DNA of 64,000 nucleotides, from the NCBI RefSeq assembly GCF_000384135.1, contig NZ_KB913028.1, forward strand, positions 895,351 to 959,350. The letters run 5' to 3'. Of this stretch, positions 29,997 through 61,515 are shown piece after piece. Below the pieces are notes generated by a model. That model was not told where the DNA came from and did no database searches. It saw nothing but the letters and a program-made list of their open reading frames with translations. Source of the DNA: Succinispira mobilis DSM 6222 (GTDB lineage Bacteria > Bacillota > Negativicutes > Acidaminococcales > Succinispiraceae). A program made the position numbers and the translations under genes. Every line of letters starts with the position of its first letter. Within the stretch, counting starts at the first letter, position 1.

Positions 29997-31028
29997 TTAA
30001 ATTAAACCACGTTCAATCATTACTTCAGCGATTTGCAAGGTGTTCAAAGCCGCGCCTTTGCGAATTTGATCACCTACCACCCACATGTTGTAGGTATTAG
30101 CTAAAGACTCATCTTTACGAATTCGGCCGACATAAACATCATCTAAATTTGAAGTGTATAGTGGCATGGGGTAAAGCATTTCTTGGGGATTATCTTGCAC
30201 AGTAACTCCAGGAAATGAGCTTAAAGCTGCTTTGATTTGAGGTATTTCCAGAGATTTTTCTAATTCAACATTAATCGACTCAGAATGACTCCGATAAACC
30301 GGCACACGAATTGTCGTAGCGGTAATTGCCATTTGTTGATCATCAAAAATTTTCTTGGTTTCTAGAACCATTTTCATTTCTTCTTTAGTATAATCATTAT
30401 CTAAAAATACGTCAATTTGTGGAATTAAATTAAAGGCAATCGGGTAATGTTTATCTAAGCTAGCGCTAGGTAAAATATTGGCAACCATTTCTTCGCCTTT
30501 AACGTGAGCAGCCACTTGGTTGTCTAATTCATCAATACCTTCTTTACCAGCACCAGAAACTGCTTGATAAGTTGACACAACAATTCTCTTGATTTTAGCT
30601 AAATCATAAATTGGTTTTAGCGCCATACACATAATGATTGTTGAACAGTTAGGGTTAGCAATTATCCCTTTGTGTTTACAAATAGCATCAGGATTAACTT
30701 CAGCTACAACTAGAGGAACTTCGGGATCCATGCGGAAGGAACTAGAATTATCAATGACAACTGCACCAGCATTTACAGCATAAGGCGCAAATTCTTTACT
30801 GATCGAGCCACCTGCAAATAGGGCAATATCAATATTTGTAAAGGAATCTTTAGTGGCTTCTTCTACGGTGTAGTCTTTGCCCATAAAATTAATCACTTTA
30901 CCCGCAGAACGTTTTGAGGCTAAAAGTCGTAATTCGTTGAAAGGGAAATTTCGTTCTTCGATTAAAGTTAAAAATTCTTGGCCGACAGCTCCAGTAGCAC
31001 CTAAGATTGCAACATTATATTTTTTCAT
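29997..31028 (-). CDS. asd: Aspartate-semialdehyde dehydrogenase
   Basis: Reduces aspartyl phosphate to the semialdehyde with NADPH. The 343-residue protein has the cofactor loop ILGATGAVGQEFL at 8-20 and SAGK near 41. The catalytic Cys128 is in NPNCSTI. The YQAVSGAGKEGIDEL region near 163 and the active-site His in RVPVYRSHSESINVE near 248 follow. It lies 27 bases after dapB and 95 bases before lysC. Confidence 0.97.
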   Translation of the reverse strand: MKKYNVAILGATGAVGQEFLTLIEERNFPFNELRLLASKRSAGKVINFMGKDYTVEEATKDSFTNIDIALFAGGSISKEFAPYAVNAGAVVIDNSSSFRMDPEVPLVVAEVNPDAICKHKGIIANPNCSTIIMCMALKPIYDLAKIKRIVVSTYQAVSGAGKEGIDELDNQVAAHVKGEEMVANILPSASLDKHYPIAFNLIPQIDVFLDNDYTKEEMKMVLETKKIFDDQQMAITATTIRVPVYRSHSESINVELEKSLEIPQIKAALSSFPGVTVQDNPQEMLYPMPLYTSNLDDVYVGRIRKDESLANTYNMWVVGDQIRKGAALNTLQIAEVMIERGLI

Positions 31029-31055: not shown

Positions 31056-31847
31056 TTATAATAATTTATCTAAACCATAAACCAAACCGCGCTGACTTAC
31101 AATTTTTTCACAAGCAAGCACGACGCCAGGCATAAAACTTTCACGGGAAATAGAATCATGACGAATAGTTAAAGTTTCGCCCAAGCCACCAAAGATAACT
31201 TCTTGATGAGCAACGTAACCTTGTAAACGTACGCTATGAATATGGATACCTTCATATTCGGCACCCCGTGCTCCGATTAAAAGTTCCTTTTCACCTTCAG
31301 CACCTTGCTTTAGATAACCACCGCGAGCTTCAGCCATTTTCTTTGCGGTAAGGATAGCTGTTCCCGATGGGGCATCTAATTTTTGATCATGATGTAATTC
31401 GATAATTTCGGCTTTAGGTAAGTATTTTATGGCTTCAGCCGCATAACGCATCATTAAAATTGCACCAATAGAAAAATTCGGCGCAATTAAAACTGCCGTG
31501 TCATTAGCTTTAGCTAATTGGTCTAATTCTTGCAAATCAGCTTCACTAAAACCTGTCGTTCCAACTACTGCAAAAATCCCTTTGCTTAGAACAAGGCGTA
31601 AATTTGTCATTACTACATCGGGTCGAGTAAAATCAACTACTACTCGAGGCTTAGCTGCTTCTAAAGCTTTGCTTAGCTCGGTGTGCATAGGTAAAGCTAA
31701 TTCGGCACCGATTATTTGACCTAGAGTTTGTGTTGTAGGATTAATATCTACGGCAGCACAAAGTTCTAGAGTTTTAGAATTGTGTACTGCTTTTAAAGTT
31801 TCGCGCCCCATTCTTCCAAGCGCACCAGTTACTAGTGTTTTAATCAT
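31056..31847 (-). CDS. dapB: 4-hydroxy-tetrahydrodipicolinate reductase
   Basis: Reduces the DapA product with NAD(P)H. The 263-residue protein has the cofactor loop VTGALGRMGRETLKA near residue 5 and VVDFTRPDV near 71. VVGTTGF near 93, APNFSIGAILM near 122, and the catalytic ELHHDQKLDAPSGTAI near 150 follow. It is first in the operon, 29 bases downstream of the riboswitch terminator. GAGGTGA precedes the ATG. Confidence 0.96.
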   Translation of the reverse strand: MIKTLVTGALGRMGRETLKAVHNSKTLELCAAVDINPTTQTLGQIIGAELALPMHTELSKALEAAKPRVVVDFTRPDVVMTNLRLVLSKGIFAVVGTTGFSEADLQELDQLAKANDTAVLIAPNFSIGAILMMRYAAEAIKYLPKAEIIELHHDQKLDAPSGTAILTAKKMAEARGGYLKQGAEGEKELLIGARGAEYEGIHIHSVRLQGYVAHQEVIFGGLGETLTIRHDSISRESFMPGVVLACEKIVSQRGLVYGLDKLL

Positions 31848-31929: not shown

Positions 31930-32105
31930 AACGTTCTCAGAGATAGCCCTCCACCTTATTCAAGGTGACAGTCGGTCAGCTATTCGCCAACAAACCAGAT
32001 TATAAGTTTTAGCAAAATATAACCTTCGGCAGTCGCCCTTTGGCTTAGATCATCGACGCTACTCTCCCTAAGTTACTAATGCTACCCGCACCTCTACTCT
32101 CGTAG
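31930..32105 (-). promoter_or_regulatory. Lysine riboswitch (L box)
   Basis: The minus strand carries the conserved blocks of the lysine aptamer in order. They are AGAGGTGCG (about 32092), AGTA and GGGAGAGTAGCGTCG in the first helices, TGCCGAAGG, a TTTGCT / CTGG region, CTGTCACC and finally TGGAGGGCTATCTC (about 31937-31950). These match the Bacillus subtilis lysC leader block for block. High lysine should favour the downstream terminator and shut off dapB-asd-lysC-dapA. Confidence 0.92.
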
Positions 32106-60078: not shown

Positions 60079-61251
60079 TTATTTACTGACAAATTCATCA
60101 ATTCTTGTAAGAGCTAGTTTGAGATTTTCCGTAGTGTTGCAATAAGCACAGCGAATATATCCTTCACCACAAGCACCAAAAGAATTTCCAGGAATAACAG
60201 CAACTTCTTTTTGCAACAACAATTGTTCAGAAAAATCCATGCTACTTAGATTGGTTTTCTTTATGGAGGGGAAGATATAGAATGCGCCTTGAGGCTCTAA
60301 ACAACTGAGACCGATTTTTTGAAAGCCGTGGTACATAAGTAAACGACGTTCATTGTAAACTTCGATCATTTGCTGACGCTCTTTTTTTGCGTTTTTGATT
60401 GCTTCTATTGCGGCAATCTGAGCTGTTATGGGAGCACATAAAATGGTATATTGATGTATCCCTACCATAGCTTCAATAACCTCATAAGGCGCAACTACAA
60501 AGCCGATGCGTAAACCAGTCATTGCGTAGGCTTTGGAAAAACCATTGAGTAAGATGGTACGTTCTTTCATACCTGGCAAGCTGGCGAAAGAAACATGCTG
60601 TCCGTTGTAAGTTAGATGCGCATACAGTTCATCGGAAATAACTATTAAGTTGTGTTTTTGAGCAAAATTTGCGATTGCGGTTAATTCTTGCATGTTCATC
60701 GTAGAGCCAGTGGGATTAGTGGGATAACCGATCAATAGAACTTTGGTTTTGGACGTGACTGCGCGCTCTAAATCTTCGATTTTTACAACGAAATTATTAT
60801 CAGCGTAAGTTGGAACTGCTACGGGGGTTGCTCCGGCTAAGAGAACACAAGCTTTGTTTGCAACGTAACAAGGTTCTGGGAGCAGAACTTCATCGCCAGC
60901 AGAAACTAAAGTACGCATTGCTAAATCTAATCCTTCGCTTACCCCAACTGTAACTAAGATTTCTTTTTCGGGATTATAGCTTATGCCGAAAGAGTCTTCA
61001 AGATCGCTAGCAATAGCACGTCTAAGATTAATATCACCATAGCTAGAGGTATAGTTTGTTTGTCCTTTGACAAAAGTTTCAATACACTTATCTCTAATGT
61101 TTTCCGGTGTTGCAAAATCCGGCTCCCCCACACCCAAAGAGATTACATTTTTATTAACATTAATAATTTCTAAAAATTTTTTCAAGCCTGAAGTAGGTAA
61201 AGATTTTACTGCTGGAGAAAATAACATAGACCAATTTGGTGTTGTAGACAT
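60079..61251 (-). CDS. Class I/II aminotransferase, probably alanine aminotransferase
   Basis: A 390-residue PLP enzyme of the aspartate aminotransferase fold. It has LGVGEPDFATPENI near residue 39, TNYTSSYGDINLR near 65 and the cofactor residues Asn179 (YPTNPTG) and Asp207 (SDELY). The PLP Lys240 is in NGFSKAYAMTG. The C-terminal IRCAYCNTTENL holds the substrate Arg. Sequence alone does not fix the substrate; aspartate, alanine or a branched or aromatic amino acid is possible. The T-box upstream has a GCC (alanine) specifier, so transfer between glutamate and pyruvate is the most likely role. Confidence 0.85.
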   Translation of the reverse strand: MSTTPNWSMLFSPAVKSLPTSGLKKFLEIINVNKNVISLGVGEPDFATPENIRDKCIETFVKGQTNYTSSYGDINLRRAIASDLEDSFGISYNPEKEILVTVGVSEGLDLAMRTLVSAGDEVLLPEPCYVANKACVLLAGATPVAVPTYADNNFVVKIEDLERAVTSKTKVLLIGYPTNPTGSTMNMQELTAIANFAQKHNLIVISDELYAHLTYNGQHVSFASLPGMKERTILLNGFSKAYAMTGLRIGFVVAPYEVIEAMVGIHQYTILCAPITAQIAAIEAIKNAKKERQQMIEVYNERRLLMYHGFQKIGLSCLEPQGAFYIFPSIKKTNLSSMDFSEQLLLQKEVAVIPGNSFGACGEGYIRCAYCNTTENLKLALTRIDEFVSK

Positions 61252-61295
61252 AAAGATACCGCCTTTCCGATATTGATATAAATTTTGAGCTGAAA

Positions 61296-61326
61296 ATAAA
61301 AAAGCGTCCTACAAAATGTAGGACGC
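61296..61326 (-). terminator. T-box controlled terminator
   Basis: On the minus strand, GCGTCCTACA and its exact complement (61317-61326 and 61304-61313) enclose three bases and run into six T residues. It is the terminator that the T-box antiterminator competes with. Confidence 0.92.
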
Positions 61327-61515
61327 GAAAATGCGTGGTACCACCATACTTCGTTAAATAAAAAATTTAACCTCAAATGCTGATAACGGCAGCAACCGAT
61401 GTGTTCTTCGCACATTGCTCAGGGGTGGCTTTCTTTGTTGCTTTTTACCATTTCTCACTTACATGGCTCACTTTGAAAAAAATCACAAATACTTCTTCCC
61501 ATCATTGCGTAACTG
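61327..61515 (-). promoter_or_regulatory. T-box riboswitch, alanine-specific (tRNA-Ala)
   Basis: The minus strand holds a full T-box leader for the aminotransferase. It has GAAGTA (the AGTA loop), a stem arm TTTGT paired with ACAAA, and the specifier loop GAAAGCCACCCCTGAGC. The specifier triplet is GCC (plus-strand 61427-61429), which codes for alanine. The T-box bulge block TGGTGGTACCACGC is at 61333-61346 and would pair with an ACCA tRNA end, as in tRNA-Ala. Uncharged tRNA-Ala should release the terminator and switch the aminotransferase on. The same loop in the glyQS leader reads GAAAGGCA with a glycine triplet. Confidence 0.92.

Follow-up and report, generated by a model that had tools for sequence, protein, structure and literature searches.

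The window, i.e., the whole stretch of 64,000 nucleotides analysed here, carries on its minus strand a gene for a class I/II aminotransferase of 390 residues (60079–61251), directly downstream of a T-box leader (61316–61514, same strand, from Stem I to the antiterminator; all positions are those of the window). The T-box (RF00230) was the sole RNA family that cmscan against Rfam returned at the site, with 108.7 bits for a gathering score of 93, and the match covers the full model (1–219). Its E value was 8.2e-25 in the search of the site and 4.4e-23 in that of the whole window. The covariance model thus confirms the T-box that a sequence-only reading of this DNA had proposed. The range given to it by that reading, 61333–61515, takes in the sensing part but ends before the terminator.

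The specifier triplet, GCC (alanine), lies at 61429–61427 on the minus strand, within GAAAGCCACC (61433–61424), where the Rfam register reads GAA-A-GCC-A-CC. The antiterminator contains GGTGGTACCACG (61345–61334), whose bulge TGGT (61343–61340) is complementary to a tRNA end ACCA. The terminator scan and the sequence place an intrinsic terminator at 61326–61298: a 10-bp stem, GCGTCCTACA/TGTAGGACGC, with a loop of 3 spans 61326–61304 and is followed by TTTTTT, the T run reaching 61298. Because the terminator shares GCGTCC with the antiterminator, the overlap expected of the transcriptional type, the anatomy indicates that this T-box is probably of the transcription-terminating type. A likely ribosome-binding site, AAAGGCGG, is found at 61266–61259. 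At the other end, TTGACA and TACTTT, separated by 17 bases (61561–61533), were read from the sequence as a possible promoter; the second hexamer is weak, the pair does not figure in the output of the promoter scan for the leader region, and the assignment is tentative. Folded as a single sequence, the leader is not unusually stable (z-score of -1.14, with 27 of 200 shuffled sequences folding equally well).

The frame of the specifier was compared across relatives of the locus. Upstream regions were collected from this genome and its class (101 in all) and from the phylum (40, one per family). These loci are not a random sample: the first class loci are the best matches and the later ones are mostly one per genus. 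T-boxes were counted by the pattern GGTGGNACCRCG with at most one mismatch. When the pattern was checked with the covariance model RF00230, matches came from all 20 positive sources (12 scored above the cut-off), from 2 of 16 mixed sources and from none of 20 negative ones. In total 78 loci have a T-box core, 51 of the 101 in the class and 27 of the 40 from the phylum. In these 78, this T-box included, the aligned specifier is GCC in 61 cases and GCT in 16, i.e., GCY in 77. The one remaining row, L149, did not align correctly; on visual inspection it contains GGCCGCCCCTGAGT at a more upstream position, and GGCCGCC stands immediately before its CTGAG. Shifted one base earlier, the same alignment gives serine (41), glycine (17), cysteine (12) and arginine (8); shifted one base later, it gives proline (61), leucine (16) and phenylalanine (1). 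The alanine frame is settled by this comparison because it is constant and varies only synonymously at the third base, the other frames giving mixed amino acids. The bulge is TGGT in all 78 T-boxes upstream of orthologues. The two nearest relatives, with 62% and 59% protein identity, have an identical GAAAGCC loop directly before the gene.

The genome itself (one contig of 2,085,243 bases was searched) agrees with this assignment. It has a gene for a tRNA-Ala with anticodon GGC that matches the GCC specifier, and the gene ends in ACCA, as anticipated when the TGGT bulge was first said to fit the end of tRNA-Ala. The genome contains twelve T-boxes with E ≤ 0.001, of which 11 exceed the cut-off. 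Their specifier triplets were read by eye and the products of nine neighbours were checked by family search. Seven of these T-boxes serve as controls and decode to their own gene: leuS (CUC), ileS (AUC), tyrS (UAC), valS (GUA), serA (UCC), thrS (ACC) and trpE (UGG). The product of the control ileS scored 611.1 bits, just below the cut-off of 621.4, and its locus carries only part of the gene. Two further T-boxes have a symporter and an ECF ATPase as neighbours and are therefore unusable as decoding controls. The fourth letter of the bulge varies as expected from the discriminator bases of the tRNAs; it is TGGC before serA, TGGA before thrS and TGGT before the aminotransferase. Taken together, sequence comparisons strongly support a T-box specific for alanine.

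What the enzyme acts on is less directly read from its sequence, and the view that protein families leave its substrate open proved correct. The protein matches PF00155 (PLP aminotransferase class I/II) with 235.5 bits. Its best-scoring NCBIfam family, NF005816 (PRK07682), is matched over almost the full length, but with 489.8 bits for a curated cut-off of 620, which counts against an alanine-forming enzyme, and the family's name, 'aminotransferase', specifies no substrate. The next family, NF005817 ('aminotransferase A'), scored 397.3 bits. The cut-off of NF005816 was exceeded in one of 14 control genomes. The nearest solved structures, 1gd9 and 1dju (about 330 bits), are named aspartate or aromatic aminotransferases, which also counts against an alanine enzyme. 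Used as a query against named genomes, the protein retrieved only five distant relatives (25–31% identical); in the phylum, 201 of the 398 genomes sampled have a relative at E 1e-110 or better. The protein is presumably linked by family to AlaT (YugH) of B. subtilis.

Because a gene behind a T-box is switched on when a particular amino acid runs short, the T-box points to a likely product for an enzyme that its family leaves unnamed. Since an alanine T-box precedes the gene here and in many relatives, the enzyme is probably an alanine-forming transaminase. We consider it very probable that the T-box is alanine-specific, acts by terminating transcription and governs one gene on its own, that of an alanine-forming aminotransferase. 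Two contacts of uncharged tRNA-Ala, anticodon with GCC and ACCA end with TGGT, would allow the antiterminator to form, and the polymerase would read through into the aminotransferase gene. The enzyme would then transaminate pyruvate to alanine, with glutamate or another compound as the amino donor. With charged tRNA-Ala, the terminator would form instead. The absence of a T-box from 50 of the 101 class loci counts against this explanation, as does the modest stability of the folded leader.

Two alternatives concern the T-box. The specifier could lie one base to either side and read AGC (serine) or CCA (proline). By eye, GAA-AGC-C and GAAAG-CCA are both possible divisions of the loop, and several T-boxes of this genome lack a spacer base after GAA. 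Yet only GCY is constant in relatives, and the Rfam register puts an A and then the helix CC after the triplet, the same arrangement that the +0 frame demands in the portion of the TBDB description available. The TGGC bulge of the genome's serine T-box (serA) differs from the TGGT found here, which argues against serine. With the alignment of relatives and the bulge letter both opposed to them, we ruled out AGC and CCA; the GCC triplet proposed from the sequence is upheld, and a shift of one base is very improbable. More improbable still is a T-box-like sequence that arose by chance or has decayed and lost its function. The modest z-score of the fold and the lack of a T-box in half of the surveyed class loci would suit it, but not an E value of 4.4e-23, an intact terminator and a corresponding element at the equivalent position in two relatives (59–62% protein identity). 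Chance and decay are ruled out by score and conservation. As judged from these alignments, the pairing of T-box and aminotransferase is real and conserved, and it is old and wide.

The alternative of more weight concerns the enzyme: the T-box would be specific for alanine while the enzyme is broad (e.g., aspartate, branched-chain or aromatic substrates), alanine being one product among several. The names of its nearest solved relatives fit this reading, and so does the small complement of aminotransferases. The genome encodes ten class I/II proteins, and this one alone represents its subfamily. The other nine are 19–27% identical to it, the next nearest at 27%, and their best scores are those to MocR/PdxR-like, PatB, LL-diaminopimelate (DapL), histidinol-phosphate (HisC) or CobD types; the sole class IV aminotransferase found resembles D-amino-acid transaminases. 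With so few aminotransferases encoded, the T-box enzyme may also serve other amino acids. Against a broad enzyme, one alanine T-box, kept across many families, would miss a shortage of the other products. We regard a broad enzyme as a serious possibility, though the less probable one, and retain an alanine-forming aminotransferase as the preferred reading. Within that reading, the enzyme is a good candidate, on sequence grounds, for the chief alanine-former of the cell. No alanine dehydrogenase exceeded its cut-off in the genome (best score 20.6 bits for a cut-off of 391.85). The single class IV protein is a D-amino-acid transaminase over its cut-off, so a second route to alanine exists, which counts against 'main'. 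AlaT (YugH) is the major alanine aminotransferase of B. subtilis and Dat the lesser, according to the part available of a 2026 paper (PMC12893347, citing Sidiq et al. 2021). The T-box enzyme is like AlaT in being, as we infer, alanine-forming, and unlike it in the T-box control present in the bacteria studied here. The earlier proposal of a probable main alanine-forming enzyme therefore agrees with the role of AlaT as regards alanine formation, and is weakened as regards 'main' by the D-amino-acid transaminase and by the possibility that the enzyme serves several amino acids.

The organisation of the locus differs among relatives, many of which have an Lrp/AsnC-like gene before the aminotransferase. 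We compared this arrangement with the setting of AlaT (YugH) in B. subtilis, whose gene we take to have an Lrp/AsnC-like neighbour, alaR. By a search for a protein motif, an Lrp/AsnC-like gene lies between the T-box and the aminotransferase in 71 of the 78 T-box loci, and one example of these proteins matches PF01037 with 58.7 bits. An Lrp gene without T-box was found in 38 of the 141 loci, and neither element in 25. As the motif is short, some Lrp genes were possibly missed. Three phylum loci (L150, L167 and L181) have the T-box 635–678 bases upstream and no match to the Lrp motif. In this genome (G000) and three others (G001, G002 and G318), the T-box lies 82–107 bases before the aminotransferase with no Lrp gene between them, and when one Lrp protein was used as query, G318 yielded only weak matches and the other three genomes none. 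A quick tree was built with 54 orthologues from the 61 class loci whose regions are long; it omits the other seven proteins of these loci and all 40 class loci with short upstream regions. In it, G000, G001 and G002 share an open fork with three genomes in which both T-box and Lrp gene are missing. This position fits the loss of the Lrp gene in their lineage. G318 lies outside the tree and belongs, by kinship assignment, to a different order, which makes a second loss likely. These patterns suggest that the ancestral unit consisted of T-box, Lrp/AsnC regulator and aminotransferase, and that the regulator gene later disappeared from the present lineage while the T-box persisted. The loci thereby form a natural series before one enzyme: the RNA switch together with the protein regulator, either of the two by itself, and neither.

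Alanine T-boxes are already known. The available part of PMC4695836 describes alaS T-boxes with the specifier GCU and the bulge UGGU in Clostridium acetobutylicum and Bacillus subtilis. The T-box described here is like them in its alanine specifier and in a UGGU bulge complementary to the ACCA terminus of tRNA-Ala. It is unlike them in that theirs combine GCU with the alaS synthetase, whereas here GCC stands before an aminotransferase and alaS has no T-box (none among the 12 of the genome and none visible in its upstream sequence). In the section of TBDB available (PMC7778990), GCU makes up 0.72 of alanine specifiers, GCA 0.18, GCC 0.09 and GCG 0.01. The share of GCC among our 78 (61) sets these T-boxes apart from the TBDB set, where it is 0.09, although the sampling of TBDB may explain part of the difference. 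Since GCC predominates here and is rare among alanine T-boxes at large, the origin of these T-boxes may be separate from that of the alaS T-boxes. A literature search, at the level of titles and the beginnings of abstracts, returned no alanine T-box on an aminotransferase; two older surveys (PMC2271356 and PMC2650889) and the supplements lie beyond that scope. A term search of the main texts of PMC2494555 and PMC3766115 likewise returned none. An alanine T-box on an Lrp-aminotransferase operon across a phylum was not found in these portions of the literature, and an earlier mention is possible. We regard as about evenly balanced the fuller account, in which the GCC alanine T-box of the Lrp/AsnC-aminotransferase operon is old, phylum-wide and probably of separate origin from the alaS T-boxes, and in which the present lineage discarded the protein regulator, leaving the RNA switch as the sole control of alanine synthesis. 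If true, it would provide a substrate for a family that is named only 'aminotransferase' and is present in half of the genomes sampled from the phylum.

Some other regulatory RNAs were observed. A T-box with a phenylalanine-like specifier, UUC, precedes the sodium:solute symporter (PF00474; L001:1677–1860), and some 75 bases beyond its core lies a second core with a terminator, suggestive of a duplicated antiterminator part. The weaker T-box before the ECF-transporter ATPase (L012:1501–1843) scored 83.4 bits, below the cut-off, and has a UGG-like specifier, which suggests an ECF tryptophan transporter. Elsewhere in the genome, genes that read as ilv-like follow T-boxes, yet the only class IV aminotransferase found is of the D-amino-acid-transaminase type. 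Within the window, a lysine riboswitch (RF00168, 91.8 bits; 31936–32104, minus strand) precedes two minus-strand genes, 31056–31847 and 29997–31028, whose products look by eye like dihydrodipicolinate reductase and aspartate-semialdehyde dehydrogenase, an ordinary arrangement.
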